From positions 584 through 59,272 of the forward strand of contig PCTW01000096.1 in the NCBI GenBank assembly GCA_002786715.1: DNA of 58,689 nucleotides, in the 5' to 3' direction. This stretch comes from Bdellovibrio sp. CG22_combo_CG10-13_8_21_14_all_39_27 (GTDB taxonomy: Bacteria; Bdellovibrionota; Bacteriovoracia; Bacteriovoracales; Bacteriovoracaceae). A program made the translations under genes and the position numbers. Positions 44,001 to 58,689 of this stretch are shown here, piece by piece. The notes under the pieces are model-generated. The model was not told where the DNA came from, made no database searches, and saw only the letters and a program-made list of their open reading frames with translations. The first letter of the stretch is position 1; the number at the start of each line of letters is the position of its first letter.

Positions 44001-46100
44001 CTTGACTGTGCTCCCAATAAGCTTCACGCTGACCAAGCGGGTTTCTTTGGAGTCTCAGCTTTTGGTGGAACTGAAGCCGAAAAGAAATACTGGGAAGAAT
44101 ATCTGATTTGCGGACAAGCTCAAGAAAAGCCTAATCCATCGAGCGCCACCTTCTTTGATTACGATATGAGCAAAAATCGCTGCTGTCGTGAAATCACCAA
44201 AGACTTTACGATGTACACTCAAGGTGACCCTGACATCGCGACCTTGAATCCTAGTTTAAATACGATTCTCTTTCCTAAAGATAATCCAAGTGGAACAGGA
44301 CGCTATTCTCGTTATTCAGTAGTAAATGCTGTCGATGCAGCAGCGACAAGTGCCCATCCTCAACAACCATTACTAGACACAACCATTGCTCCTCCCAAGG
44401 CCTATCAGTGGAAAACTTTCCATGACACCGGAGAAAAAACTTGTTGTGGCGGCGGTTGGGTTAGAAAGTTTGCCGATGGAACACACGACTGGACAGTTAA
44501 AAACCGTCTCAATCTAACTCCACAAAACTTTGCCTGTTTGAATTATCAAAATAACTTAGTCTCAAGTACGCCTGGTGCAGATGTTAGAACACAAAGTTAT
44601 TTTAAAGATCTCGACAAACTCTGTCTTGCACCTGCTGATGGAGGATGCGTTGAGACTGGAATCGACATTGATAACTCTCGAAATATTTTGGTTCCAACAG
44701 ACTTAACAACGCTTTCCGGAACTTTAGATACCTCTCCAGCAGATGCTCCTTCGTCGGGAACCGCCTGTGTTCAAACGAGGTCAGATGTCGTTCCTTATAT
44801 GCCAGTTTACTATCAAAACGATTTACCGATTAACACATCATTCACTGATGTTCAGTGTAATAACTACTTAAGAGATCCGATTGAATTTCCAGCTGTCAGT
44901 CTTTACTTACCAATCTATATCGGAGGCGTTCAAAACATTACTTCTATACGCCTCAACTATTTTGATGTGGATGGTAAAGATTTGGGTCTTTCACCCGAAC
45001 TAATCGCAAATAGTAACCCAGTATGTAGTTTATCAATGGGTAATCCTTCCATGGCCTCAGTTTTAGGCGTTGATCAGTTTTGGTGCTTGGCCCCTGATAG
45101 AACTGGTCTCTATGATATTTTCAGTATTAGAGCTCCAATTAAAAATGTTCCGGCAGACCCAACCACGGATAGTGCCGCTTTTGATCCTCCAGATGGATGG
45201 GCCTATGCTGGTATCGTGATTGATTTTAATATCAGAAATAGAGATAGCTATCTCTATGGTTCGCCAGGAGCTCTTAATACCAGCATTAAGGCCACGAAAG
45301 CTGGGAATATGTACTATTACGCAACCAAGCTTGCTCGCCTAGAACTTTTGGGAGTTCCTCAAATCTTCTATGAACCTCTAAGATGTAACACAGATCGCTC
45401 GCAGATTGTTGACGGAATTTTTGAATTATCAAGTCCTACATGGGCCGCCTTCGATGCAATCGGCATTACTTACAACAATACTGTGAACTCTAAAAACCTC
45501 GACGAAATTTATGCCACGGCTTCAAATGCTGCCACAGGATCTTATATCAATGCTGGCGATAATATCGAAGTTGTCTACAAAGACAAAGTCTCGTTACCAG
45601 ATATTTTCGCAGGCAATGACTTCACTTGTTGTATTAAAGCAGGTGGCGAAACAACTTCTGCTGATCGTTGTTGTTCAAATGCAATGGGAACAAAAGATGG
45701 GAAGCAGCAATGTGTAATTCCTAGAGGAACAGATCTCTACGTCTACTTCAACCGCTTTATCTCTGGCGAAGGAACAGGAGCTGATTTCCCATTGGGCGGA
45801 TTGGTTGATGCAGACTTCGTCCCTGAAACAGGCGAACCAAAAATCGATACTGCTACTGAAAACAAAGTCCGCGCTCTCGGTGAGGCCCTGTGTTCAAGCG
45901 GCAAGGTCAGAAAAGGTGGAGCCTTTGGTAACTTCTTAGGAGAGCCAAATAACGGCTTCTATCAGCAAGAAGGCTCAATTGAAGAAAGCCGTATCTTTGG
46001 AATCGTCGATTCTTCAGGTGATTTTGAATCTACAACTGACTCTGGTATGGCCCCTTTCATTGAAGGTTTCAGATGGAACCATCACCTCTACTGCGAGTAA
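41016..46100 (+). CDS. Giant Cys-rich lipoprotein (about 1690 residues)
   Basis: The frame opens with a TTG at 41016 (GGGAG nine bases upstream) and no better in-frame start exists. MKSGVLKPTFILLILSLILSSC is a lipoprotein signal with lipobox LSSC, so the protein is lipid-anchored. A Thr/Ser-rich linker (KKRTSTAATGGTTTATPTPS) and later PVPTPTPGP tracts suggest an extended stalk. The rest is beta-rich with many paired cysteines: CRAKGFDCCLDGQC, CQAYHQCEVDTDC, CHTNLDCAPNK, RCCRE, TCCGGGW and CCIKAG, CCSN. The spacing recalls small knotted modules of eukaryotic secreted proteins. No catalytic domain is evident. A surface or adhesive role is a guess. A TAAAAT-like element lies at about 40929-40934. 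Confidence 0.88.
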   Translation: MKSGVLKPTFILLILSLILSSCVPQQKGSAKKRTSTAATGGTTTATPTPSFTTTQSAYWYDGVAQSGALTVNQNTTTLFYIRGQKIHDFLSLTGNSTKVYCLVVDYNSASAKKQLRSRAVPISFNNLSTGTLERLFRIDAIEDSLNSSTCSGTTYQFNSTGQTLGTVASSDAAFSPKNFCTNCSGIITSVQTSLYTASTGIGTVTYVPKSILDIGSMSLRIDTKSNTVENPVSCSLSTCRAKGFDCCLDGQCVKDGQVKPNAPNESDYPQALADVLSNPSNFTKWPNIYYVCSQQVVPVPTPTPGPDAQATSSALLQQDILDYQCLEEGKKSFPDFPATMTCAPTYDITAYEAVRTKVWNKCGCSADPFPTDPNNFYCPDFGLKPVKDQFGNIIEIVCDIPQPISEPTPFQELSLSISTRHAPHRFYDATTGSSVDDIQVAQQAGQTPIPEGTPFSYLDETSKTDPLNVSNNMNAILGEFSTELNRALPAKVVNVEYDQTYIISTNSGLYSPCPMCARDSWYASFTAHPTSNRGAGLQASSWTTERDEFVFNSSLGNYEDTQFGRACWLPPTMIPFSHTTQTTATAQRQNRLITQAAMYMNGYQRDWYGFNKGALIGSFDGVKWFAIGKSRRIRATTTKLFLAINAPFADLADPTTFSISILADNSNSVAPLYDYDPDYTLYESNQNQGGSCQAYHQCEVDTDCITRLGWEYMCIDVSDFRTRMPRFDIFGEEKSNDQIAEAGISEFLQGTMPGGSRKRCVYRGAGSICKGDYTSGIKNTTDNRQRMFTCAPNFYCATVDSSNFNDEVVRDPNQLETFLYGMDADVLGRPLSYLGTGKTLPTVAQTNIISNASILLSNTTDVGLCRPGKKLSSVSLLAQHNDKDTSKRTDYINQISSCNSGTTGSARVVSCPQIESRDDQATTKGNYIFSGFETTLLEQQNMCGKESQYTQSPGVVVSTFKAIEAQSLPSQSFLLAPTLVQDACLRRPGSVCHTNLDCAPNKLHADQAGFFGVSAFGGTEAEKKYWEEYLICGQAQEKPNPSSATFFDYDMSKNRCCREITKDFTMYTQGDPDIATLNPSLNTILFPKDNPSGTGRYSRYSVVNAVDAAATSAHPQQPLLDTTIAPPKAYQWKTFHDTGEKTCCGGGWVRKFADGTHDWTVKNRLNLTPQNFACLNYQNNLVSSTPGADVRTQSYFKDLDKLCLAPADGGCVETGIDIDNSRNILVPTDLTTLSGTLDTSPADAPSSGTACVQTRSDVVPYMPVYYQNDLPINTSFTDVQCNNYLRDPIEFPAVSLYLPIYIGGVQNITSIRLNYFDVDGKDLGLSPELIANSNPVCSLSMGNPSMASVLGVDQFWCLAPDRTGLYDIFSIRAPIKNVPADPTTDSAAFDPPDGWAYAGIVIDFNIRNRDSYLYGSPGALNTSIKATKAGNMYYYATKLARLELLGVPQIFYEPLRCNTDRSQIVDGIFELSSPTWAAFDAIGITYNNTVNSKNLDEIYATASNAATGSYINAGDNIEVVYKDKVSLPDIFAGNDFTCCIKAGGETTSADRCCSNAMGTKDGKQQCVIPRGTDLYVYFNRFISGEGTGADFPLGGLVDADFVPETGEPKIDTATENKVRALGEALCSSGKVRKGGAFGNFLGEPNNGFYQQEGSIEESRIFGIVDSSGDFESTTDSGMAPFIEGFRWNHHLYCE

Positions 46101-46155: not shown

Positions 46156-46950
46156 ATGTTTAGAGTTTTCATCCTGATTATATTCTCCCCTGTATTGGCG
46201 TGGGCTTCCTCGCAAACTGTGGCGTGCAGCCACCCTCAAGTTTGCAACCTTATCAACGATATAGCTCCAGAGCTCAAGGCCACTCTGCCTGAAGCAATGA
46301 ATGGTGATCCTCACCTGTATTCGCCTTCTCCTTCTTCCATTAAAAAGTACTTAAACGTCGATATCTTAATTGCTGCTCCTTTGGAGATGAATCCATGGAT
46401 TGAAAGAATCGTTTCCATGCGAACAAAGCAAAATAAAAAGAGTTATATTCTCAAACACAAAAACTGGAGCAAACTTAAAGTTTCTAAAGAATCAATGGCC
46501 CACTTCTGGCTCAGTATTGATTCGCTTTGTGATTCACGATCTCAGATATCAACATTCCTAGATTCTAAAGATAGCGCTTGCCCCTATCTCAATTTTCAAA
46601 AAGAATTAACTCTTGAATTGGGAAATTGGAAAAACTCACTTTTTATTTTAAGTCATGACGCTCTCACAACGCTTCTCAAAATTCATGAATTAGAAGCACT
46701 TCCCATAGAAAGCGGTGGGCACGATCGCGAGATCAATTCTAGAACCATGAAAAACTTAGCAAAATTGACTCAAACTTCTCGCACGATCATATGGATAGAA
46801 GAGCCTCCTATGCATTTTCCTTCTCAAGTACTTAAGTCTAAAAAACCAAACGATATCTTTTTAAGAATCAATATCGTAGGTGAAATAGGACATTCTCCGA
46901 CCCAAGTTTTATCAGACTTCCTCACAGCGCTTAAAGAGGCTAAGCGATGA
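46156..46950 (+). CDS. Metal ABC transporter substrate-binding protein (ZnuA-like)
   Basis: 264 residues with a signal peptide (MFRVFILIIFSPVLAWAS). The pattern of cluster 9 metal-binding proteins is present: SHPQVCNLINDIAPEL, GDPHLYSPSPSSIKKYLNVDILIAAP (metal His and helix), ILSHDALTTLLKIH and HDREINSRTMKNL. These proteins deliver zinc or manganese to the ABC permease in the periplasm. It is shorter than usual and lacks a His-rich loop. The gene overlaps the ATPase gene by ATGA, starting a four-gene operon. Which metal is not decidable from sequence. Confidence 0.85.
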   Translation: MFRVFILIIFSPVLAWASSQTVACSHPQVCNLINDIAPELKATLPEAMNGDPHLYSPSPSSIKKYLNVDILIAAPLEMNPWIERIVSMRTKQNKKSYILKHKNWSKLKVSKESMAHFWLSIDSLCDSRSQISTFLDSKDSACPYLNFQKELTLELGNWKNSLFILSHDALTTLLKIHELEALPIESGGHDREINSRTMKNLAKLTQTSRTIIWIEEPPMHFPSQVLKSKKPNDIFLRINIVGEIGHSPTQVLSDFLTALKEAKR

Positions 46951-47714
46951 GCGAAATTTTAAAGATTGAAAAACTTTCTTTCAAGAGAAATGTTAGTGAA
47001 TCAATTCTGAAAGAAATTGATCTGATCCTCAATTCCTCTGAAACCTTAGGTATCATTGGCCCCAATGGAGGGGGTAAAAGTACGCTTCTCAAACTGATTG
47101 TAGGACTTCTCAAGCCGACTTCTGGCCATATCAATTACAAAGGTCGCTTAATGGGTTATTTGCCTCAGACCGCTTACACAGAGAACGTCTTTCCCATAAC
47201 GATTAACGATGTTTTAGATTTTTCAACATTAAAACATCAAGGTCTTCTCAAAAAAGAAGAAGTGCTGGAACTCGTGGGACTCACAAAACCTGTCTCTACC
47301 CTTATGACAAAACTCTCAGGTGGAGAAAGACAAAGAGTGCATTTAGCGCGGGCCCTTATGAGTGGTCCAGATCTGCTCATTCTCGATGAGCCAACTCAGG
47401 GTCTTGATAGCACTGGTCAAGATCAACTTTTAAGCCTTATCAACAAGATAAAGATAGAATATCAAACGGCCATCATTATTGTAGATCACAATATCAATCA
47501 ACTGATCAAGCATTGTGATAAAATTCTCTGTCTCAATAGAACTCAACACTGGCATAATCACAAAGATCTATTAAACAAATCAGTGTTGGAATCCATTTAT
47601 CATTGTGAATTCGAACATATTCTTCTTCATGAGAAAGAAGATTTGGGTGAGCATCATGCTTGTGATCATGATCTTCATAACCATGATCACCATAATCATA
47701 AGGAGTCTAAATGA
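46947..47714 (+). CDS. Metal ABC transporter ATPase with His-rich C-terminal tail (ZnuC-like)
   Basis: 255 residues. Walker A GPNGGGKSTL, Q-loop MGYLPQTAY, signature LSGGERQR, Walker B LLILDEPTQG and the H-loop VDHNINQL are all intact. The last ~25 residues form an Asp/His-rich stretch (HHACDHDLHNHDHHNHKESK), a likely metal-binding tail in the cytoplasm. With the ZnuA-like protein and ZnuB-like permease it forms a complete importer; ATGA overlaps on both sides imply coupled translation. The His tail favours zinc. Confidence 0.92.
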   Translation: MSEILKIEKLSFKRNVSESILKEIDLILNSSETLGIIGPNGGGKSTLLKLIVGLLKPTSGHINYKGRLMGYLPQTAYTENVFPITINDVLDFSTLKHQGLLKKEEVLELVGLTKPVSTLMTKLSGGERQRVHLARALMSGPDLLILDEPTQGLDSTGQDQLLSLINKIKIEYQTAIIIVDHNINQLIKHCDKILCLNRTQHWHNHKDLLNKSVLESIYHCEFEHILLHEKEDLGEHHACDHDLHNHDHHNHKESK

Positions 47715-48550
47715 GCTCCTTTACTGATTTCATCCAATACGACTTTTTGCTATATTCATTAATCGGAGCGATCTTGCTCTCCCTCGCAAGTGGACCTTTA
47801 TCTCCATTGATCATTGCGAAAAGACAAGCCTTTATGGGAGGTGCCGTATCTCATTCAACTCTTTTAGGTTTGGCCCTAGGACTGTGGTGGATCGAAACCC
47901 AAAACACACTGCTACTTTTTCTCTTCACATTGGTAACCACTCTTGTTTTAACACTTATTCTAGCCCGTCAAAGCTTCAAAGAAAAACTTCCTGAAGAATC
48001 TTTTATAGGAATTTTTTATACCATTACGATGGCCCTTGGAATTTTAGTGCATTCTCAGAATGCTCAAAACAAAGGTGATCTGATGAGTTACCTGTTTGGT
48101 AACGTGCTTATGCTTAGTCCTGAAGACTTAATCATTGCTTCAATCCCAACTATTCTTTCCTTGGTAACAATTAAATTATTATGGAAGCAATGGAGCTTTT
48201 GGGCCTACGATCCTGAAGGTGCTCAAGTCGCTGGTCATCCTATTAAACTTTGGCATTATCTATTTTATTTATTACAAACATTGATTATCGTTTCTGGTTT
48301 AAAACTTGTTGGCATTGTTCTTATTCAAGCTTTTCTTCTCATACCTGGACATTTTGCGCTCAAAATATCGAAGGACATTAAATCAACTTACCGAAACTCT
48401 CTGATATTTGCCGTATCAACATCAATCATTGGACTTTATCTGGCCAACCTTTTTGAACTTCCAGCAGGAGCAAGTATGGCCGTGGTACAATTTATTGGAT
48501 TAGCGTTGACTACAATAATATTGAATTTAAAAGAACGAGGCCTTTCATGA
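47711..48550 (+). CDS. Metal ABC transporter permease (ZnuB-like)
   Basis: 279 residues with about eight hydrophobic helices, the ABC-3 permease family. YSLIGAILLSLASGPLSPLI and the region RQAFMGGAVSHSTLLGLALG match the cytoplasmic coupling loop of MntB/ZnuB. The C-terminal half contains LKLVGIVLIQAFLLIPGHFA, also typical. AAGGAG lies five bases before the ATG, within the ATPase gene. The stop overlaps the start of the thioesterase gene. Confidence 0.93.
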   Translation: MSSFTDFIQYDFLLYSLIGAILLSLASGPLSPLIIAKRQAFMGGAVSHSTLLGLALGLWWIETQNTLLLFLFTLVTTLVLTLILARQSFKEKLPEESFIGIFYTITMALGILVHSQNAQNKGDLMSYLFGNVLMLSPEDLIIASIPTILSLVTIKLLWKQWSFWAYDPEGAQVAGHPIKLWHYLFYLLQTLIIVSGLKLVGIVLIQAFLLIPGHFALKISKDIKSTYRNSLIFAVSTSIIGLYLANLFELPAGASMAVVQFIGLALTTIILNLKERGLS

Positions 48551-49020
48551 ATAAAATAGAAAACAAAACTCCAGAAGAATCCGAAGTTGTCATGAACATG
48601 CTTGTGATGCCAAATGATGCCAATCCAAATGGTACTATTTTTGGTGGCGTTGTCATGAGCTGGGTTGATATGTGTGCCGCAATGGTGGCCCAAAGACATT
48701 CAGGTAAAAATGCAGTAACTGTTCATATAGATGATATTTCTTTTCTTGCGCCAATTAAAATTGGCGACCATGTAAAGATCATGGGGAGGGTTAATTACAC
48801 TGGAAAAAGCTCCATGGTCATTGGTGTAAAGGTTTTGTCTCATAATCCTAAAACAGGCGAAGAACGCCATACAACAACTGCCTATCTGACCTTTGTCGCC
48901 CTAGATGACATAGGAAGACCAACGGGTGTTATTCCTATTAAATTAGTCACGGAAGAAGATAAACGCCGGCACGAAGAATCTCAAATAAGATCAAAGAAAA
49001 ATCAAAAGAAAAGAAGCTAA
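48547..49020 (+). CDS. Hotdog-fold acyl-CoA thioesterase (YciA-like)
   Basis: 157 residues, single hotdog domain. MPNDANPNGTIFGGVVMSWVD carries the conserved catalytic helix entry (Asn, Gly, Gly, Asp), VTVHIDDISFLAPIKIGD is the second strand block and LTFVALDDIGRP the end. The tail is very basic (KKNQKKRS). YciA-type enzymes cleave acyl-CoAs in the cytoplasm. Its ATG overlaps the permease stop (ATGA), which places it oddly at the end of a metal-transport operon; a functional link is not obvious. Confidence 0.92.
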   Translation: MNKIENKTPEESEVVMNMLVMPNDANPNGTIFGGVVMSWVDMCAAMVAQRHSGKNAVTVHIDDISFLAPIKIGDHVKIMGRVNYTGKSSMVIGVKVLSHNPKTGEERHTTTAYLTFVALDDIGRPTGVIPIKLVTEEDKRRHEESQIRSKKNQKKRS

Positions 49021-49107: not shown

Positions 49108-49138
49108 TAAAAAAAAGGAGATCCGAAGATCTCCTTTA
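49108..49138 (-). terminator. Strong intrinsic terminator of the nine-gene operon
   Basis: On the minus strand AAGGAGATC-TTCG-GATCTCCTT is followed by TTTTTTATTC. A nine-pair stem with a stable UUCG-type tetraloop and a long U-tract, just after the stop of the last gene. In the plus direction the tail is TATAAAAA, so it may serve the thioesterase gene less well. Confidence 0.92.
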
Positions 49139-49144
49139 TAAAAA

Positions 49145-50623
49145 TTACATAAACATTCTCAACCAAGTTTGCAGAAGTCTCGTTGAAGCATCTCTAGAAA
49201 GAGGAACTAAACGATTTTTTAGATAATCCTCACCAGAGTTCGTATTCGGTAAGACGCCCCCAAATGTAGGGTCTTCCCAACTTGTAGCGGCCCCATAATC
49301 ATAGTTCCATTTCCATGTTTCTTTATTTTTACCAACTTTTTCAGCAACATTGGAAAAGCGGTTAGCGAATAATCCTTTGAGGTCTCTCATAGACTTGTTT
49401 GAAGGATTAAAGATTTGGCTAATATCAACATCAAAAGTCACCCCAGCAACTCTATCCGTAAAAATCTTAGTACCAGCAATTTGCAGCTCAGAATCACCGC
49501 CCATCAAAGCTAAGCGCTTCTTTAGAATGGCTTCAGTCACACCAGGACGAGATGTGAAAAGACGAGCGTTGATGGCGTAATCTCCTTGATTAGGAAGATC
49601 CGCGAGGTGTTCCATGGCCTGAAATCCAATCAGACGGTTTTTAACTCCTAGCTTTAAGTATTGATACGCCATAGGGAGGGTCTTAGAAGCATTGTTACGT
49701 AAAGTTAAAAAAGATTTAAAATCAGAATCGTTTAAAATATCTGCAAAATCTTTAGGACCTAAAACCTTTGTTGCAAAAATTCGAGTAATAAATGAATTAC
49801 CCATTCCAAACTTTTTACTGACAAAAGTTTTCTTTGTCATTTTAGAAACAAAATCAACCAGACCTTCAAAATTATAGCTGGCCAAATAATGAGTCATTCC
49901 CAAGCGCGTATAGACATCGGCCAGGGCCAAATAGAGATGGGCAGGCATAACCTTGCGATAACGATTAGTTTGCGAAGTCATTGCTGTCGCGACATTCTCT
50001 CCCAAGAGCAAACCTGAATCGTACATGAATATGGCCTTATCGGCATCAGCACTATCAGCAATGTTTTGGATCATGATCGCATTGGCCTGCACGATTGGAG
50101 AGATTTGATTAACAACCCAATCTTGGAATTGAGCAAACGAAGTGAAGAGCCCTTTGTGTCCTAAGATCGTTTCTTCTGGGTTAGGATCTGCAATGTAATC
50201 GAACAAGGCGTCTACATGCTCACCTCTTCTCTCTTTATTGCGCTTAAACATTCGAAGTTGATTGATCACGTTAACGTAGACGACATCCATTGGTTCTATG
50301 ATAAAACGAAGTCTCCAAAGAATACCTTTTAAAGGCATAATAACTTTAGCAACCCCAGCGTAAAGCTGAGCGACTGAATTGTCTGGATCTTGAATTGCCA
50401 AAGCGATAATTTTACTTAAAGCTGGATCAACTTGATCTTTAGTCTTTACTGAAAAAATTAAATTGTTCATCTGAGTTGCGGCTTCACTTTGTAAAGAGCT
50501 CTCAACGTTTGAAGGAAGTCGTTTAGTGTTGACTGCGTGTTGCCCACTAAATTGAGTACGATAAAAAAAGACTCCAAATACCAAAAAACCAAATAGCCCC
50601 ATCCAGGGGAAAAACTTTTTCAT
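49145..50623 (-). CDS. Membrane-anchored hypothetical protein ending the operon
   Basis: 492 residues with an N-terminal anchor (WMGLFGFLVFGVFFYRTQF). The rest is a large, mainly helical periplasmic region; segments such as NSVAQLYAGVAKVIMPL and HLYLALADVYTRLGMTHYL have TPR-like spacing but do not give a clear repeat. A hydrophobic patch around 300-330 (DFKSFLTLRNNASKTLPMAY) may be buried. It overlaps the RND exporter gene by ATGA and sits directly before the terminator, so it is the last gene of the operon. No family recognised; a periplasmic accessory of the exporter is possible. Confidence 0.75.
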   Translation of the reverse strand: MKKFFPWMGLFGFLVFGVFFYRTQFSGQHAVNTKRLPSNVESSLQSEAATQMNNLIFSVKTKDQVDPALSKIIALAIQDPDNSVAQLYAGVAKVIMPLKGILWRLRFIIEPMDVVYVNVINQLRMFKRNKERRGEHVDALFDYIADPNPEETILGHKGLFTSFAQFQDWVVNQISPIVQANAIMIQNIADSADADKAIFMYDSGLLLGENVATAMTSQTNRYRKVMPAHLYLALADVYTRLGMTHYLASYNFEGLVDFVSKMTKKTFVSKKFGMGNSFITRIFATKVLGPKDFADILNDSDFKSFLTLRNNASKTLPMAYQYLKLGVKNRLIGFQAMEHLADLPNQGDYAINARLFTSRPGVTEAILKKRLALMGGDSELQIAGTKIFTDRVAGVTFDVDISQIFNPSNKSMRDLKGLFANRFSNVAEKVGKNKETWKWNYDYGAATSWEDPTFGGVLPNTNSGEDYLKNRLVPLSRDASTRLLQTWLRMFM

Positions 50624-52887
50624 GAAACACTCCTTGCAAGTTTTACAAAAATCGATTTAAAACGAATTTTTTTACTATTAAATTGAATAAAATATTTAAG
50701 GATAGCAGGTAGAAATAAAATATCAGCGAGTAAGGCCAAAACAAGAATGAGGCATAAAAGAAACGCCATTTGATAGAAAATCTTAATATCCGTTAACAAG
50801 AAAGTTGGCATCGTAATGACGAAGATAAGGGTTGTTCCCATTAATGCATTAACCGTTTTTTTATAACATTGAGAAAGTGCTTCAGAAAAATTAATACCAC
50901 CATCAATACGTTTTTTAAAATCAAGAATAAAATGAATGGTGTCGTCAACTCCAACACCTAGAACAATTCCGAAAATTACAATGAGATTATACTCAATCGT
51001 GACTTCAAAAAAATTCATTAGTGCAATTGCAAAGAAAAGGGGGAAAGTATTTGGGATCATGGCCAGTATCGCCCAGTTCAATGAACGCAGCATGAATATA
51101 AAAATGATAAAAATAAGAGAATAGCTAAAAAGAAAAGATTTAAAGAAAGAATCAAAAATCCCACCCATTAACTCAGAACGTATTGGAAAAAACCCTGCAA
51201 ACTTATAATGAAGTTGAGAAAGGCTTTGGTCTTTAAATAAATTTTCAACACTCGATTTCAAGTTTGTCATCGCCGAGGAAGATGAGTCACTCACGAAAAG
51301 AGTTATTCGGGTGTCATCTCCGCGGAGTGAAAAATACTGTTTAAGCAGGCCATAATCTTCAAAAATATTGAGATAGTTGGAGACTTTAGAATCGGGATTG
51401 TTAAAACTTTCACTTGCAGATTGAGGCAAATAACTTCTAATGTAATCAAAGACATTGCTAGAAGAATCAACTTTCGTGACATTTGGAAGAAGGGATAGTT
51501 TATGAGTTAATTTTTTCAGTAATTGCTCCCCTTCTACTGTTCGGAAATAAAGTTTATCAATATGATCGCCACCAACGACTAATTCAACAGGACCTAGAAA
51601 ATTAAAGCTTTTCTGAAAGGCCATATTTGACTGAGACAAAGGATGCTTCGTTACAAACTTATCATAGAGATCATCACTAACATTTAATTTATGAATATTA
51701 AAAATTGATAAAACGGTTAAAGCGATGAATCCCCAAATGATATAAGTAGATTTGGTTGTTACAAATTGAAGTAAATGACTGTTGAAATTAGACATTGAGC
51801 TTTTTCTTTTTACATTCAATTCGAGCTTCAATCCTTCAAGAACCCAAGGTAAAAAGGTAAAAGTAAGCAAATAGCATAGAGCTATGCCAATTGCTGAAAA
51901 TAAACCAAAATAGCGAACAGGAGGAATATCACTCAAGCAAAGTGAACCTAGACCAACAACAGTAGTTAACGAGGTTAAAAAGCAGGGGTAACGAACTTCT
52001 TTGGCAGCTTTCCAAGGATCGCGGATCACAGAATAAGTTGAAAAGTAGTGAATGATATCAGAGGTCGCAATAACAAAAACGAGCAAGAGTGAAAAGCTAT
52101 TAAAAGGGTCAAGTCCACCTTGAAGAGATAAGATTGCTTGGGCCGTAAAACCATAGGCGATTCCCATAACGAGAAGAGAAAGTACTCCTACCCTATAATC
52201 ACCAAAGAAGTAGTAGATAATCATAAAAATAAGCAGTAACAGCAAAGGTAGAATCCTTTGTTGACTCGCTTGAACCTCATCGAAGAAATGCATACGAGCA
52301 ATGTCTGCCCCTAATAAATGTGACTTTAAAGTCGAATGCTCTAGATTGAACTCCGACCTTAACAAATGAAGCTGTCTATTGAGCTCAACTCTTTGGACAA
52401 CACTAAGATTCGGCCGCTCTTTAAGGTAAATAATCGTTGATTTATGATCTTTAGAAATGAGTGTATTTTGAAGATAGGCCAGTTTATCAACGGCCTTTAA
52501 TGCTGAATTTAATATATTTCCATTTACGACAAAAGGATCTAGAGAAAACTTCTTTTTAGAAAAATGAATATACTCACTATTAAATATGCTTCTTACAGAC
52601 TCCAGATGTTTCGTAGTCTTGAGTTTTTCTTCAACATATTGAATTGATTTTACAGATTCTCCATCAAGTTCTTTATCAGAAGAAAAAAGAAAAAGAATAT
52701 CTCCATCAGAATTAAAATCTCGATTAAATTGATTATAATTCTGAATAGCAGAACTATTTGGATCGAGAATTGAAGTGATATCGTACGGTTTCGCCTTTTG
52801 CTTTAGTAAAAGTGGAGTTGGAGCCACAAATAACAGCACTGCAAGGACTACACAAATGGTGAAAACCTTACGATTTTTTAAGCCCAT
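50620..52887 (-). CDS. RND/MMPL-family exporter
   Basis: About 755 residues with the duplicated RND layout. TM1 is VFTICVVLAVLLFVAPTPLLL. Helical blocks lie around 210-360 (LLIFMIIYYFFGDYRVGVLSLLV) and around 585-740 (FGIVLGVGVDDTIHFILDFKK, matching the VDDTIHF of the other exporter here). Two large periplasmic domains lie between. The ATG at 52887 lies inside the end of the UbiA gene; a GTG at 52896 is possible. COG1033-type exporters move lipids or lipid-linked products across the inner membrane, which fits the prenyltransferases upstream. No LolA-like partner is encoded in this operon. Confidence 0.88.
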   Translation of the reverse strand: MGLKNRKVFTICVVLAVLLFVAPTPLLLKQKAKPYDITSILDPNSSAIQNYNQFNRDFNSDGDILFLFSSDKELDGESVKSIQYVEEKLKTTKHLESVRSIFNSEYIHFSKKKFSLDPFVVNGNILNSALKAVDKLAYLQNTLISKDHKSTIIYLKERPNLSVVQRVELNRQLHLLRSEFNLEHSTLKSHLLGADIARMHFFDEVQASQQRILPLLLLLIFMIIYYFFGDYRVGVLSLLVMGIAYGFTAQAILSLQGGLDPFNSFSLLLVFVIATSDIIHYFSTYSVIRDPWKAAKEVRYPCFLTSLTTVVGLGSLCLSDIPPVRYFGLFSAIGIALCYLLTFTFLPWVLEGLKLELNVKRKSSMSNFNSHLLQFVTTKSTYIIWGFIALTVLSIFNIHKLNVSDDLYDKFVTKHPLSQSNMAFQKSFNFLGPVELVVGGDHIDKLYFRTVEGEQLLKKLTHKLSLLPNVTKVDSSSNVFDYIRSYLPQSASESFNNPDSKVSNYLNIFEDYGLLKQYFSLRGDDTRITLFVSDSSSSAMTNLKSSVENLFKDQSLSQLHYKFAGFFPIRSELMGGIFDSFFKSFLFSYSLIFIIFIFMLRSLNWAILAMIPNTFPLFFAIALMNFFEVTIEYNLIVIFGIVLGVGVDDTIHFILDFKKRIDGGINFSEALSQCYKKTVNALMGTTLIFVITMPTFLLTDIKIFYQMAFLLCLILVLALLADILFLPAILKYFIQFNSKKIRFKSIFVKLARSVS

Positions 52888-53777
52888 CTTACCCACTCAG
52901 CAATAATCCAGCAAATGCGTCCTAAGAAAAGCGTTTTTAATAACGTCTCCAATTTATTCTTAGAATTTTCATAGGGATTTTTTGCCCATCTAAAAACTTT
53001 GACTGCAGCAAATAAATAAATACTGCCAAATGCCGCATACAGGACAAGTTCACCAATTTGAAAATAATGAATGTATTGATCTTCCCAAAGAATGTAACCA
53101 ATAATGAAAACTGCGACGGCAAAAAAGATGGACCCTAATCTTAAGGCAAGGCTAGGCCCGAGAAGCGTAGAATAATTTTTGGCACGAGCATAATTATCAG
53201 TTGGTTCAAGTTGATAAATTTGAGTGGCTGGATAGGAGCCCCAAACACTTAAAGTGAATGCGACACATATCATAAAAAATCGCATATCAAATGCCCCACC
53301 AGCTAGAGCATGCCCAAAAAAAAGTGAAGCGAAACCACATCCAAGAGAATTAATCACACTATCGAGCCCTCCAACTTCTTTTCCCCGTGGAATTTTTCCC
53401 AAGCGCGCTGAATACAATATAGAAAGGAGCAAAATAAAAAGACTCGCATAGAAGACAAGTGTCCCTAAGAAATAGGAAATGAAAACTGCCAGGACCATGA
53501 GGAATAGTCCAAAGAGTCCTAAATGCTTTGGATTACTTGGAGGATGATCTAGATAATTGAGAGGTTTGCCATCTGATTCACCATCAAAAGCGGTGTTGAG
53601 CGCTGCCGTTCCACCGAAAAGCAAAATACTATAAACTCCAAAAATGATCGCCATATGTCCTAAGACAAGCGAAAATGTATCAGGTTTAACCGATGAACAA
53701 GCATAACCGGAAAAGGCCAAAAAGAAGCTTGGAATGAAACTATGTGGCCTCATATGGATAAAATAATTTTTCATCAT
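52878..53777 (-). CDS. UbiA-family prenyltransferase-like membrane protein (second copy)
   Basis: 299 residues, about eight to nine hydrophobic helices. The two acidic motifs of UbiA enzymes are present in modified form: NTAFDGESD (canonical NDxxDxxxD, first Asp replaced) and QLEPTDNYARAKNYSTLLG (second motif). These motifs bind Mg-pyrophosphate of a prenyl or related donor. HMRPHSFIPSFFLAFSG is the typical N-terminal substrate helix. It is one of two UbiA-like genes in the operon, followed by the RND exporter (overlap) and preceded by a small membrane protein (ATGA overlap). Substrate unknown. Confidence 0.85.
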   Translation of the reverse strand: MMKNYFIHMRPHSFIPSFFLAFSGYACSSVKPDTFSLVLGHMAIIFGVYSILLFGGTAALNTAFDGESDGKPLNYLDHPPSNPKHLGLFGLFLMVLAVFISYFLGTLVFYASLFILLLSILYSARLGKIPRGKEVGGLDSVINSLGCGFASLFFGHALAGGAFDMRFFMICVAFTLSVWGSYPATQIYQLEPTDNYARAKNYSTLLGPSLALRLGSIFFAVAVFIIGYILWEDQYIHYFQIGELVLYAAFGSIYLFAAVKVFRWAKNPYENSKNKLETLLKTLFLGRICWIIAEWVRWA

Positions 53778-54322
53778 GCTAACGCCTCTTCACTTTTGCG
53801 AAGATCTTTTGATCGTTCATTTTGGTAACTATTCAATTCACGATTACCAATAACTCCCATCGCAACAAAGATGATGCCCCAAAGTACGTAATGGTATAGG
53901 GGAAGAGAACCGAAGCCCTTATACTTGAAGAGGAACCCCCACAGGAAGACGACAGCGGTTCCAGTATTAATCGAAATCCACATTATTAAATGAATGATAG
54001 TTTCTTTAAAAGAACAACGGTCCACGTGAAACTTCATTTCATCAATAAACTCATGAGTAAAACGGGTTATAAAGGCACCTAAAATAATAGGCAAAGCAAT
54101 GAGCCGATTCCATGCCAACATCAAAAGACCAACTTGTAGGACCCAACTTGCATAAAGAATAATTTTATGCGTCTTGAGTTCATTGTCGGTAATATCCACC
54201 TCCCAGATTTTCACGTGAGTGAGATGATCGAGATACCAAGCAACACTAAAAACAATTCCCATTAGAATAGTTAACCAAGATACAAGTTCAGGACTGAACT
54301 CTCGTAAAAAATCTAAATCCAT
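53774..54322 (-). CDS. Small polytopic membrane protein, hypothetical
   Basis: About 182 residues from MDLDFLREF, four hydrophobic segments (WLTILMGIVFSVAWYL, LQVGLLMLAWNRLIALPIILGAF, LIMWISINTGTAVVFLWGFL, YHYVLWGIIFVAMGVIG). Polar residues between the segments include HLTHVKIWEVD and RFTHEFIDEMKFHVDRC; the histidines and acids here could bind a metal. The ATG at 54322 overlaps the end of the first UbiA gene; a longer form from 54358 is possible. It is sandwiched between the two UbiA-like genes with overlaps on both sides, so it probably belongs to the same membrane complex. No family recognised. Confidence 0.72.
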   Translation of the reverse strand: MDLDFLREFSPELVSWLTILMGIVFSVAWYLDHLTHVKIWEVDITDNELKTHKIILYASWVLQVGLLMLAWNRLIALPIILGAFITRFTHEFIDEMKFHVDRCSFKETIIHLIMWISINTGTAVVFLWGFLFKYKGFGSLPLYHYVLWGIIFVAMGVIGNRELNSYQNERSKDLRKSEEALA

Positions 54323-55149
54323 AGGGCCCCCGAAACAACTAACAAAATGATGAAGCAAGTGAACAAGTTATAAGTTTGAAGATAACGATCTTTTAAAGAG
54401 CTTTGCTGTGAAGCTTTATAAAGAATAAAACCTCTCCATAAGCACACGAGGATAAGGGACAAATAGAAATGATGAAGAGAGTTCTCAAAGTAATGAAAAG
54501 CCAGAAGCAAGGCCCATGAAAGAAGATTCATGACATGAAGAATTTTATAAGTTTTCAATTCACCATAAACAACTGGAAGAGTTCTAACTCCATGATCGCG
54601 ATCTGAATCACAATCACTTATATCCCTCATGACACTCCCGATGAAAACTTGAAGGGCTGAAAAAAGTGCAATATTAACAACAGTATTTTGATCAATTGAA
54701 CCAAAACCAAAAAGAACCAAAATCCCCCACCCAAAAGAGATAAAAATATTCTTTAAAACAAAGAGATTTTTAAAACGATGAAATCTAGCAATTGCCGGCA
54801 GCTCTAAAGAGTAAATGACTCCGACAGAGAAAATGAGAAAGAGCAGCCAAAAAGCTGAATTCTGCTCGATATAAAGATAGGTACCAATTGCAGAAAGTGG
54901 CAACAACAGTCCACCTAAGCGAAGAGATTTAAAATGTTCAACAATACTTCTTTCTTCATCAAGAACATCATTTAAGCTGTAGACAAAGATAGTTGTCGCG
55001 ATCACGCCGAGAAATTTGATAATAAAAAGTGATCCATTAAAATCTGCCCTTAAATTTCCGCCCACTAAAAAAAGCGAGAGAGCAGCAAAAACCAGCATGT
55101 AAAGTGATTTGCTATTTCGAAATATTGATTTATTGCTTCCTGCAATCAT
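54313..55149 (-). CDS. UbiA-family prenyltransferase-like membrane protein (first copy)
   Basis: 278 residues with about eight hydrophobic helices. UbiA acidic motifs: YSLNDVLDEERS (NDxxD form) and RDISDCDSDRDHGVRTLPVVYG, close to the canonical second motif DxxxDxxxGxxTLP. This is the more orthodox of the two UbiA homologues and looks catalytically competent. Members transfer prenyl (or phosphoribosyl) groups onto aromatic or lipid acceptors. Its start overlaps the DUF4956 gene by 20 bp. Pairing with a second, altered UbiA protein in the operon suggests a heteromeric or two-step reaction (inference). Confidence 0.9.
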   Translation of the reverse strand: MIAGSNKSIFRNSKSLYMLVFAALSLFLVGGNLRADFNGSLFIIKFLGVIATTIFVYSLNDVLDEERSIVEHFKSLRLGGLLLPLSAIGTYLYIEQNSAFWLLFLIFSVGVIYSLELPAIARFHRFKNLFVLKNIFISFGWGILVLFGFGSIDQNTVVNIALFSALQVFIGSVMRDISDCDSDRDHGVRTLPVVYGELKTYKILHVMNLLSWALLLAFHYFENSLHHFYLSLILVCLWRGFILYKASQQSSLKDRYLQTYNLFTCFIILLVVSGALWI

Positions 55150-55636
55150 TTCTTATTCCTTCAAGTTTAAGGGACATATGATTATTAAAATAGCTCTGAA
55201 AGAGACTCACTATCGTGTAAATCCCTGCCAAAAGCCAGGCAATCGTTATTTCATCTAACCCACAGGCAATTCCTGCAATGATGGCGAATAGAATAGCGTG
55301 TGAAAGATCGTTCGTTTCAAGCTTCGTTCTAAATCGAATGAGGGCTATGGCAGCACCGATGGAAAAAGCCCGAGCGAGATTATTATTAACAAGAATCATG
55401 ACAATTGTTAGTCCAACAGATAAGTAAATGAGATTAAAAGAAGATGCGACTACTCCTTTATAAACGATCATATTTTCATAACGGTCGCGCTGTTTACCGT
55501 ACTTTAATCGAGCGCACAAAATAGTAATAAAAAAAAGAACTATTCCGAGAGTCAACGAATGGCCAACAAGACGATAGATGTCTACGTCAGACAGAGCCAC
55601 ACTTACCATTTGATGTTTATCAATAAACTTTCCCAT
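55130..55636 (-). CDS. DUF4956 membrane protein
   Basis: 168 residues with four hydrophobic helices. The family signature is clear: LARAFSIGAAIALIRFRTKLETNDLSHAILFAIIAGIACG, given here in part as FSIGAAIALIRFRTK and AIIAGIACG. DUF4956 proteins are typically encoded next to VTC-domain polyphosphate polymerases, as is the case here (the VTC gene ends one base into it). They are thought to form the membrane partner of the polymerase. The N-terminus (HSLTLGIVLFFITILCARL) is the first helix. Confidence 0.88.
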   Translation of the reverse strand: MGKFIDKHQMVSVALSDVDIYRLVGHSLTLGIVLFFITILCARLKYGKQRDRYENMIVYKGVVASSFNLIYLSVGLTIVMILVNNNLARAFSIGAAIALIRFRTKLETNDLSHAILFAIIAGIACGLDEITIAWLLAGIYTIVSLFQSYFNNHMSLKLEGIRNDCRKQ

Positions 55637-56448
55637 TAAAAAGTGGCTCCATGTTGTTGTAGCATTCGATGTGATTTAAAAATTCCACAGCAATACTTAG
55701 AAAATGATTCTTCACTTCCAAAAACTTCCTGCATTAAAAACTTTGCCATCATATCGTCTTCAACTAGAGACTTAATCTCAACAACAACGCTAGAATCAGT
55801 TTCAATTTTAGAATAAGGAGGAAGATTATGTTGCGCATAACGAATTAAATTAAATTGAATACTATCGTCAATGGTCAAACGAACTTCCGGATTAGATCTC
55901 AAAGCGAATGAATGTCGGCGATAAGAAGTTGTAAGAACTGGAGAATAAGATTGAACAGTTAAAATATCCAACATCTCATCAAGAAATTCAGCAATCTCTT
56001 CCGAAGACTTATCTGGATTAATAAAACTAATTCGCTCAAATGAACGTTCAATATAATTTCTTACCAGATTAGGTTTTAAAAATTCAAACAAAGATCGATC
56101 AAAGGCCAAGCGTTTTTTGAAAGTGACATCGCAAACTTTAGATTTAATTTCAAAATAACATTGATTCAATTGAGGATCATCAGATAAATATTCACGAATA
56201 CGGACTTTTAAACGAATTTCACGACTGAAAACGGAATCAGCATAATTAGTAAAATTTGGATCATCAAGATAAGTGTTTCGGATTTGGCTGATAGACTTAC
56301 CTTCAAAAAAACTTTCATTAAAAAGTGAGTTAAAAACCGATCCTGAGTCATTGAGAATTGAACTGAGTAGGTTTTGTTCTAGCAATTTTTTACGCTCAAT
56401 TCTTTTGCTAAAAGTTTTTTCTATATTTTTTGAATTATTCATCTTCAT
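55636..56448 (-). CDS. VTC-domain protein (polyphosphate-polymerase-like)
   Basis: 270 residues forming a triphosphate-tunnel (VTC) domain. Basic strands are visible in order: RIERKKLL, then REIRLKVRIREY, CYFEIKSKVCDVTFKKR, TSYRRHSFAL, EVRLTIDD and VVVEIKSL. Lys/Arg and Glu residues alternating on strands line the tunnel in VTC4 and related polymerases, which polymerise phosphate from ATP. Followed immediately by DUF4956, its usual membrane partner. It overlaps the FAD oxidoreductase gene by ATGA. Whether the product is polyphosphate or a different phosphate chain is not shown. Confidence 0.85.
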   Translation of the reverse strand: MKMNNSKNIEKTFSKRIERKKLLEQNLLSSILNDSGSVFNSLFNESFFEGKSISQIRNTYLDDPNFTNYADSVFSREIRLKVRIREYLSDDPQLNQCYFEIKSKVCDVTFKKRLAFDRSLFEFLKPNLVRNYIERSFERISFINPDKSSEEIAEFLDEMLDILTVQSYSPVLTTSYRRHSFALRSNPEVRLTIDDSIQFNLIRYAQHNLPPYSKIETDSSVVVEIKSLVEDDMMAKFLMQEVFGSEESFSKYCCGIFKSHRMLQQHGATF

Positions 56449-57929
56449 TCCATCACTGCAACTTTTCTTGTTTTTTTAAAATAATTCATAACTTGAGCTT
56501 TCAAAATCCTACATTTAATAGAAAGGAGTAAAACAAGCACAGTCTTAAAAAGTAATACCCCGTAGATGGGACCTATTCTTGCATAAAAATTTGTCTTATA
56601 AGACTTTAGAGGAGCCGATATACCAAGCCTTTTCTTTTCGTCATACATTGTTAAAAACATTGATTTAAAATAAAGGTAGAATCTTCTGGATAAAAGATCG
56701 AACTGAGCTGGTCTTTTAATACATGACTTAAATAGAAGTGAAGGGACGACGCTCCCATAATAATAACCAACTAAATCAAAAGTCATCCAAAGGCTAAAGA
56801 TTTCAGGATCATCCATGACCTTATAGCGGCCTTCATAAAGTTTAAATCGATCTTTGAAACTCTCCACAAAAACTTTCTCATATCTTCGTGATAGCTTTTC
56901 TATATTCTTGCCAACGAAGTCTGCACTGATGACATCACAAAGCCATAAAACTTGATTTCCAACATACTCTAAGCCAGGACTGAATAAGGGATCAATAAAT
57001 CCACTAGCGTCTCCAAGCGAGGCAATTTTATTTTCGATTAACTTGTGGCTAATATGCGGCAAATGCGGGAGATGAAAATCCTTCAACATTTCATACTCGC
57101 TTAAGAAAATATTGAGCAGGGGATGATTTTCCAAAAAGCTCATAAAGTGCTTTCGCGGATTCTTAACTTCCTCCGGAAAATACTTCTTATCGATAACGAT
57201 CCCAACACTCACAATATCTTCTTCAATATTAATTTTCCAAATCCAGTATCCCTTCCCCATAAAATGCTCAGTTGCATTTTCTGATGCCGCAAATGCCCTT
57301 CGCGTCCAACCAGTTTTAGATTGAAATGATTGTGCATGATCCTTTAATTTAAAGTGGGCCCATGTGGCGGAAGTTTGGAGTCCTTCATACTTTTGACACC
57401 ACTTTCTTTCACCTGAAATCAGTCTTGACCTACCGGAAGCATCAACCACCCAGGAGCTGTGAATTTTGGTATCATCAGATAGGGTCAAGCAATGAAACCC
57501 ATCCTCTTCAGTTAATTGCTTGAAACTTTGCCCGCGATAGACATCAATACCCAGTTCAATACAGCGCTGAAGCAGCTCTTCATCAAAACGACTGCGGTTG
57601 AGTTGACGTCCATTACTTCGTGACGGATAACTCGGGCTAGCAAGATCAGGCAACTCTTCAATTGTTTGATTATCAACTTGATCAAAATAAAAACGTAGCC
57701 CACCTTTTTGTACATGTTTCTGAAAAATATCATCGACATTGATTGCATACTTGAAAAAGAGTGCCGCAATGTCATTAACACTCTCTCCCACTTTCTGGGG
57801 GAATTGATTTCTTTTTTCAACAATAGCAATTTTCATCTGAGGATTTTTTTGGAGTAAAGCAATCGCCAAACTACTACCTGCTGCTCCCCCGCCAATAATC
57901 GAAACATCAAATGACTTTTTAGTGTTCAT
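56445..57929 (-). CDS. FAD-dependent oxidoreductase, tryptophan-halogenase-like
   Basis: 494 residues. Rossmann motif IIGGGAAGSSLAIALL, then a KVGESV segment and NRSRFDEELLQRC, VVDASGRSRLI, GYWIWKI (position of the GWxWxIP halogenase motif) and LGDASGFIDPLFSPGLEYV. This is the FADH2-dependent halogenase/monooxygenase branch (CmlS- and geranylgeranyl-reductase-like). Because the WxWxIP motif is only partly kept, halogenation is uncertain; hydroxylation or desaturation is equally possible. The last ~100 residues include a hydrophobic stretch (YGVLLFKTVLVLLLSI) that suggests membrane association. ATGA overlaps link it to the VTC gene, and it starts where the CYTH gene ends. Confidence 0.88.
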   Translation of the reverse strand: MNTKKSFDVSIIGGGAAGSSLAIALLQKNPQMKIAIVEKRNQFPQKVGESVNDIAALFFKYAINVDDIFQKHVQKGGLRFYFDQVDNQTIEELPDLASPSYPSRSNGRQLNRSRFDEELLQRCIELGIDVYRGQSFKQLTEEDGFHCLTLSDDTKIHSSWVVDASGRSRLISGERKWCQKYEGLQTSATWAHFKLKDHAQSFQSKTGWTRRAFAASENATEHFMGKGYWIWKINIEEDIVSVGIVIDKKYFPEEVKNPRKHFMSFLENHPLLNIFLSEYEMLKDFHLPHLPHISHKLIENKIASLGDASGFIDPLFSPGLEYVGNQVLWLCDVISADFVGKNIEKLSRRYEKVFVESFKDRFKLYEGRYKVMDDPEIFSLWMTFDLVGYYYGSVVPSLLFKSCIKRPAQFDLLSRRFYLYFKSMFLTMYDEKKRLGISAPLKSYKTNFYARIGPIYGVLLFKTVLVLLLSIKCRILKAQVMNYFKKTRKVAVME

Positions 57930-58689
57930 TAAATATTATCCATTAAGTGCAGAATACTATCGCGATATTTAGAATCATAATTGGCCTCAATTGAAAACTT
58001 CTTGGCCAACTCATTATTCAGTTTGTGAATGTACTCTTTTGAAATGATCGAATCAGGATATTTATTCTCAATTTCTAATTCCATTATTACATTTCGTGCT
58101 TTTTTATTTTTAATACTAAAAAAATGAGCGTGATCGGCTGACATTTCCGCAAGCCAAATATTCCTTGGATTTTGGATAAAAAACGTTGGTAACTCTCTCA
58201 CTGTATACAGTGGTTTAAGTTCAGTTTCCCCTTCTTGAATAAAAACATGAAATCGTTCTCTCTTTGAAACACCAATTAAAACAGGTCTAAGTTTGGAAAC
58301 TATTAATGGATCTTGCGGAAAGAAGCGCTTCAACTTAACAAATGGATCAATGGTAGAATTTGACTTAAATTTTATCCAATCAGTGATGAGCTCAATTTGC
58401 GAGTGAAAATCTGAAGCAGGCCCTCTTTGAGGAATATCCCCTTCGACAAACTTGAAAATGCTCCCCAGCAAATCTTCAATAGGTTCCCATTGATCCCCAA
58501 TTTTAACTTTATAAAAGCTCAAACTTCCCTCTTCGACTTCCATTCTTACATCATCTTCAACATTCGGCTCTGATTTAAGTTGAAGATCATAATCCATTTC
58601 TCCACTTTCAAAAGTTCGCTTGCGGAGTCGAAGGCTAAGTTTATTATTAAACAAGGCCAGATCTGGAGTATCGAGATAGAGGTCGTAAT
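57929..58689 (-). CDS. CYTH-domain (triphosphate tunnel) protein, N-terminus outside window
   Basis: The open frame continues past the TTG at 58654 to the right edge; reading it out gives YDLYLDTPDLALFNNKLSL, the canonical CYTH opening (YxDTPDLxL...LRLR). So the gene is truncated by the window and at least 253 residues are visible. Further CYTH features: RLRKRTF, DYDLQLKSEP, VRMEVEEG, SKLRPVLIGVSKRERFHVFI and VIMELEIENKYP with a closing helix NELAKKFSIEANYDSKYRD. CYTH proteins hydrolyse or bind triphosphates, including polyphosphate. It is the furthest-upstream gene seen in the operon and shares its superfamily fold with the VTC protein two genes downstream. Confidence 0.85.
   Translation of the reverse strand, partial: YDLYLDTPDLALFNNKLSLRLRKRTFESGEMDYDLQLKSEPNVEDDVRMEVEEGSLSFYKVKIGDQWEPIEDLLGSIFKFVEGDIPQRGPASDFHSQIELITDWIKFKSNSTIDPFVKLKRFFPQDPLIVSKLRPVLIGVSKRERFHVFIQEGETELKPLYTVRELPTFFIQNPRNIWLAEMSADHAHFFSIKNKKARNVIMELEIENKYPDSIISKEYIHKLNNELAKKFSIEANYDSKYRDSILHLMDNI

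Follow-up and report, generated by a model that had tools for sequence, protein, structure and literature searches.

The closest described arrangement to the operon reported here is the CotH-VTC-DUF4956 accessory set carried by Pel loci of Gram-positive bacteria (PMC7112168); in Streptococcus intermedius, mutants of the CotH gene and of this set's 4-TM gene show changed Pel levels and reduced aggregation (PMC12345266). Like that module (PMC7112168, PMC12345266), the operon and its relatives place VTC and DUF4956 genes beside the gene of a secreted protein and an operon for an envelope product. Unlike it, they contain no Pel genes, their secreted protein (p510) does not resemble CotH in profile comparison, and UbiA genes, a novel membrane protein (g6), a flavoenzyme and an RND transporter are present in addition. 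Individual components also have described counterparts. The VTC protein has the catalytic tunnel residues of Vtc4 of the eukaryotic VTC complex, but no SPX domain, and a distinct DUF4956-like protein supplies its membrane portion. The flavoenzyme g2 belongs to the sequence family of PltA/CmlS-type flavin-dependent halogenases, with Lys75 aligned to the Lys-Lys-Phe-Gly stretch of PltA, whereas a carrier-protein partner is absent here and the WxWxIP motif is complete in only three relatives (L040-L042). Among solved structures, digeranylgeranylglyceryl phosphate synthase is nearest to both UbiA groups (E 1.2e-6 for UbiA1); unlike the setting of that enzyme, the genome lacks geranylgeranylglyceryl phosphate synthase (PcrB) and the first Asp motif is degenerate. 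The transporter g8, with 11 predicted TM segments, shares its MMPL domain and RND topology with the hopanoid transporter HpnN and the MMPL family, but scores only 60 bits against the HpnN profile, far under the cut-off of 752. Finally, the YfiM-1 lipocone-UbiA operons (PMC12419801) similarly couple a membrane protein to a UbiA homologue, a comparison made for g6 by neighbourhood only, whereas none of their amidophosphoribosyltransferase, RidA, HD and PHP genes was seen here. In open-access text, we found no described system of this composition, as the original prediction had supposed, and neither the combination of UbiA and CYTH nor that of DUF4956 and a VTC domain turned up in searches.

The DNA analysed (the window) is a stretch of 58,689 nucleotides in which nine minus-strand open reading frames, all present on checking, run from 58687 to 49145 (Table 1). 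Successive neighbours from g1 to g9 overlap by 1, 4, 1, 20, 46, 4, 19 and 4 nt with no gaps, the 46-nt overlap of g5 and g6 shrinking to about 10 nt if the likelier g6 start is taken. The nine genes are a real operon, and the prediction that they overlap or abut and end at one terminator was borne out, a hairpin with a T-run (49137-49114) following the last stop. Promoter-like matches in the region number 26, fewer than in shuffled sequence (35.0 +/- 6.6), a count that neither shows nor excludes internal promoters. The contig (C38) breaks off within the CYTH-like gene, at window base 58689, and the rest of the assembly yielded no further part of this gene. The 5' end of the operon as drawn is therefore the assembly edge rather than a biological start, and the operon is incomplete there. 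On the plus strand, a metal-type ABC transporter set (46156-48550; binding protein, ATPase with a His-rich tail, and permease; znu/mnt-like by eye) lies directly before the convergent end of the operon. An acyl-CoA thioesterase (hotdog)-like gene, also identified by eye, is convergent with the operon (48547-49020), and positions 41016-46100 hold a very long reading frame for a secreted cysteine-rich protein of 1694 aa with a lipoprotein-like start.

Table 1. Features of the operon, in window coordinates
Feature	Position	Strand	Remarks
g1, CYTH-like triphosphate-tunnel protein, N-terminus lost to contig end	57929..58687	-	probably periplasmic, by analogy with signal-bearing relatives
g2, FAD enzyme, flavin-dependent halogenase/monooxygenase superfamily	56445..57929	-	closest solved structure PltA; K75 and E321 invariant
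g3, VTC-type polyphosphate polymerase-like protein	55636..56448	-	Vtc4-like tunnel residues
g4, DUF4956-like 3-TM membrane protein	55130..55636	-	short divergent branch
g5 (UbiA1), UbiA-fold membrane protein	54313..55149	-	motif 2 intact; motif 1 degenerate in relatives
g6, novel 4-TM membrane protein family	53774..54322	-	invariant D, E, H, R residues; adjoins UbiA1 in 10/10 loci
g7 (UbiA2), second UbiA-fold membrane protein	52878..53777	-	Pfam UbiA
g8, MMPL/RND transporter	50620..52896	-	Pfam MMPL
g9, N-terminal hydrophobic segment, no Pfam family	49145..50623	-	homologue convergent with cluster in L040/L041
Terminator-like hairpin with T-run	49114..49137	-	10-bp stem just past last stop

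Most of the family labels originally proposed could be retained. VTC (97 bits), both UbiA proteins (65 and 48 bits; PF01040 cut-off 34.2), MMPL (86 bits) and Trp_halogenase (66 bits) all pass their Pfam cut-offs. Two labels hold by homology, because relatives in the same type of cluster pass the cut-off: g1 scores 18.8 bits against CYTH (cut-off 23.2) and its L041 counterpart 26.8, while g4 scores 16.4 bits against DUF4956 (PF16316; cut-off 30.6) and cluster relatives 60.3 (L032) and 58.6 bits (L041). The homology of g4 to these proteins, at E values of about 1e-5 to 5e-6, is the basis for calling it DUF4956-like. What did not carry over is the description of the UbiA proteins as prenyltransferases, since g5 and g7 are UbiA-fold proteins by Pfam with putative prenyltransferase activity, and the CYTH gene proved to be truncated. 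The gene predicted to encode a further membrane protein, g6, is present, but most likely starts at ATG 54322 instead of TTG 54358. Neither g6 nor g9 matches a family in Pfam or NCBIfam and, together with p510, they make three families without a Pfam match.

Using g6 as the marker for carrier genomes, we found it in 6 of 369 genomes of the phylum, the window's own included. Two genomes (L032, L033) that belong to the window's family but to a different genus hold six of the nine window protein types in one run, ordered UbiA1-g6-p510-CYTH-UbiA2-DUF4956-p221-VTC (p221 checked in L032 only). Three genomes from a different family of the phylum (L040-L042) share the order flavoenzyme-UbiA1-g6-p510-CYTH-UbiA2-RND; L042 is cut within the RND gene, before the VTC-DUF4956 region, and the L040 and L041 contigs continue with DUF4956, a p221-like gene and VTC, then a convergent g9 homologue at the end, uniting all nine window families in one block. 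Identity between the window and these clusters is 34-47% for the well-conserved proteins, about 31% for UbiA1 and CYTH, and about 25% for VTC and DUF4956. Gene order is thus shuffled among clusters while the partners are kept, rather than the orthologues being scattered, the outcome that the original prediction had named as counting against it. No relatives of the cluster were found among the plasmids and viral contigs searched.

Sampling of Bacteroidota, to which the Flavobacteriales genome with L017 belongs, revealed g6 in four genomes, with a fifth match (G979) that is weak and lacks context. One locus reads UbiA1-g6-flavoenzyme-p510-CYTH on a single strand (L070); in others UbiA1-g6 is convergent with p510-CYTH (L069) or with an MMPL transporter (L048), or lies on a short contig (L071). 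The smaller set that recurs here therefore consists of UbiA1 with g6, the halogenase-like flavoenzyme, and p510 with CYTH. Across both phyla, each of the ten loci examined has UbiA1 and g6 side by side, and the seven with p510 all carry it immediately upstream of the CYTH-like gene. With the complete set of nine protein types present in a second family of the phylum and a portion of it in Bacteroidota, conservation supports the predicted reading of the operon as one functional unit. VTC-DUF4956, UbiA2 and g9 turned up only in those loci that belong to the window's phylum, and no VTC-DUF4956 pair was seen near the Bacteroidota clusters in the loci fetched, although it may lie elsewhere in those genomes. 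The phylogenetically deepest part is UbiA1-g6, p510-CYTH and the flavoenzyme; the VTC-DUF4956 pair, absent from the Bacteroidota loci, would fall outside this oldest core. In a Pseudomonadota sample g6 was found in 0 of 398 genomes, a result that says no more than that the family is scarce or lacking in that group. At 39%, the CYTH protein of L070 is closer to the window's than are the CYTH proteins of the window's own phylum (28-33%), which suggests horizontal exchange. These pairings also revise the original grouping of two triphosphate-tunnel proteins: they are not a pair, VTC going with DUF4956 and CYTH with the secreted p510. By profile comparison, CYTH and VTC may or may not be related (probability 14%).

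The two UbiA-fold proteins, likewise, may or may not be related to each other (profile-comparison probability 18%). Window UbiA1 carries the Asp motifs NDVLDEE and RDISDCDSD, and the corresponding sites of UbiA2 read NTAFD and QLEPTD. Motif 2 of UbiA1 is intact, and the loss of the degenerate motif 1 in several relatives suggests that its donor may be something other than a prenyl diphosphate. Its constant partner g6 gave a predicted model of pLDDT 78 with no match in the PDB; being compact and conserved, with invariant His, Asp, Glu and Arg residues, it could be expressed with UbiA1 and assayed.

The second constant pair appears to act outside the inner membrane. CYTH-like proteins of relatives begin with a hydrophobic, signal-like segment, on which ground g1 is probably periplasmic. 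The CYTH-like family has RxExE (RxE), and the majority of its proteins have ELEIE at the site of the C-terminal Glu; both resemble tunnel enzymes of the hydrolase type. At the ExExK strand position, a part absent from window g1, relatives mostly have ExQxK. Tunnel positions that are acidic in the hydrolases are basic in Vtc4 (PMC4641920), and in the CYTH-like protein these distinguishing positions are mostly acidic. These residues and the signal-like N-terminus of relatives suggest that it may be a periplasmic hydrolase or transferase of triphosphate or polyphosphate. Its neighbour p510 is a secreted protein of about 510 aa in relatives and, judging from this synteny, was probably lost from the window owing to the contig end. 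Seven p510 sequences share invariant G178-S179, K182, K197-W-G-D-E, W336-D337, N342 and D363-L364-G365, with a spacing that resembles kinase catalytic motifs. Comparison with Pfam, profiles and solved structures gave no significant match, and the predicted model (pLDDT 49.6) is too poor for the p38 kinases listed by the fold search, at non-significant E, to make the kinase likeness more than a lead; identity with CotH was rejected (profile probability 0.1%). A 1065 aa protein encoded elsewhere in the same genome (contig C21; L044:8960-12154, minus strand) contains a segment matching the p510 profile (E 4.6e-7). As the match covers a C-terminal segment only, it was rejected as the missing p510 and appears to be a distant paralogue, a second, larger member of a p510 superfamily.

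The VTC-DUF4956 pair has followed a different path. The g3 protein carries the aligned R/K/E residues and complete tunnel residue set of yeast Vtc4, its closest solved structure (profile E 2e-21), with a basic residue two positions after the C-terminal Glu (E224-x-K226); domain and residues together mark it as a VTC-type polyphosphate polymerase-like protein, predicted to synthesize polyphosphate from ATP. In gene trees, the cluster copies of VTC and of DUF4956 from L032, L033, L040 and L041 form one clade. Window DUF4956 instead groups with L022 and L023 (100/100), and window VTC with L020-L023, at weaker support and with a program warning of long branches. The window pair thus belongs to another lineage than that of its relatives and was exchanged, while UbiA1, g6, UbiA2, CYTH, the flavoenzyme, RND and g9 all match the relatives' cluster. 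That the pair was kept through such an exchange argues that it is needed. Separately, CotH genes occur in 12 of 59 relatives, in some close to VTC genes (G034:C36 and G036:C22; L027, L026, L057, L058), and none is present in the operon's own genome.

From gene content and order, co-conservation, pairings, signal sequences and residues, we infer the chemistry, substrates and transport direction of an envelope biosynthesis-and-export system acting on both sides of the inner membrane, a scheme that as a whole we put forward as possible but somewhat short of probable. UbiA1 and g6 would together act within the membrane as an enzyme that makes or remodels a lipid, probably isoprenoid, to which UbiA2 would add a second step in the window's phylum. 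The PltA-like flavoenzyme would then oxidise or halogenate this lipid, and the MMPL/RND transporter would move it out of the inner membrane. VTC would make polyphosphate which, with DUF4956 as membrane partner, would be pushed into the periplasm, where p510 and the CYTH-like tunnel protein may use or process the phosphate chain in decorating the exported product. The earlier proposal of a pathway that makes and exports a lipid- or polyphosphate-linked compound would fit this anatomy. Bacteroidota loci without a nearby VTC-DUF4956 pair suggest that the steps from transport onward may not be linked everywhere. The flavoenzyme may represent a tailoring step, as it is missing from the fetched loci of some carriers; its WxWxIP motif is incomplete in the window (WIWKIN), against WVWTIP in L040-L042 and WWWIIR in L070, and we therefore describe g2 as halogenase-like without claiming halogenase activity.

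A competing account, which we consider rather doubtful, would place two independent modules on one transcript. One would make and export a lipid or pigment-like product (UbiA1-g6, FAD enzyme, UbiA2, RND, p510-CYTH and g9), and the other would be a generic, hitch-hiking VTC-DUF4956 polyphosphate module. Such independence would agree with VTC-DUF4956 genes that occur without UbiA genes in other relatives (L022-L026) or beside other partners in Gram-positives (PMC7112168), and with the Bacteroidota clusters; against it, the pair sits inside the cluster in the window, L032, L033, L040 and L041 despite exchange and differing order.

Two known kinds of pathway also bear on the proposed lipid. An archaeal-type ether-lipid route, with the UbiA proteins as digeranylgeranylglyceryl phosphate synthases and the FAD enzyme as a geranylgeranyl reductase, is suggested by the closest solved relative of the UbiA groups and by a match of g2 to digeranylgeranylglycerophospholipid reductase (E 7.7e-10). 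Yet g2 is far closer to halogenases (PltA, E 9.6e-30), motif 1 of UbiA1 is not conserved, and PcrB was found in none of seven carrier genomes in which positive controls were detected; the route was rejected on this absence and is the least probable of the readings considered. Scarcely more probable is an aryl-polyene or flexirubin-like pigment cluster, a type in which a halogenase-like flavoprotein and an MMPL-type exporter also occur together. Among outside relatives of g2, the nearest ones picked up by the scan, in Alteromonas flava (L016) and a Flavobacteriales MAG (L017), do lie among ketosynthase-, FabG- and dehydratase-like genes, of aryl-polyene or flexirubin type by eye, but ketosynthase, acyl carrier protein, acyltransferase and LolA-like genes are all missing from the operon and from the relatives' clusters, and this identification was rejected.

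Returning to the envelope biosynthesis-and-export system, its participants, namely UbiA-fold membrane enzymes, flavin halogenase-like chemistry and periplasmic polyphosphate or triphosphate enzymes, are not known to cooperate, and the scheme, if true, would link them. The periplasm is thought to lack ATP. In a bolder form, which we regard as unlikely though worth stating, this would be an undescribed envelope system of at least two phyla, in which the UbiA1-g6 pair, the flavoenzyme and the periplasmic, kinase-like p510 with CYTH make a new class of phosphate-decorated lipids, one lineage using exported polyphosphate to replace ATP as the periplasmic phosphate donor. The operon would thereby offer a testable setting both for the role of bacterial VTC-DUF4956 pairs and for the phosphate source of secreted kinase-like proteins.
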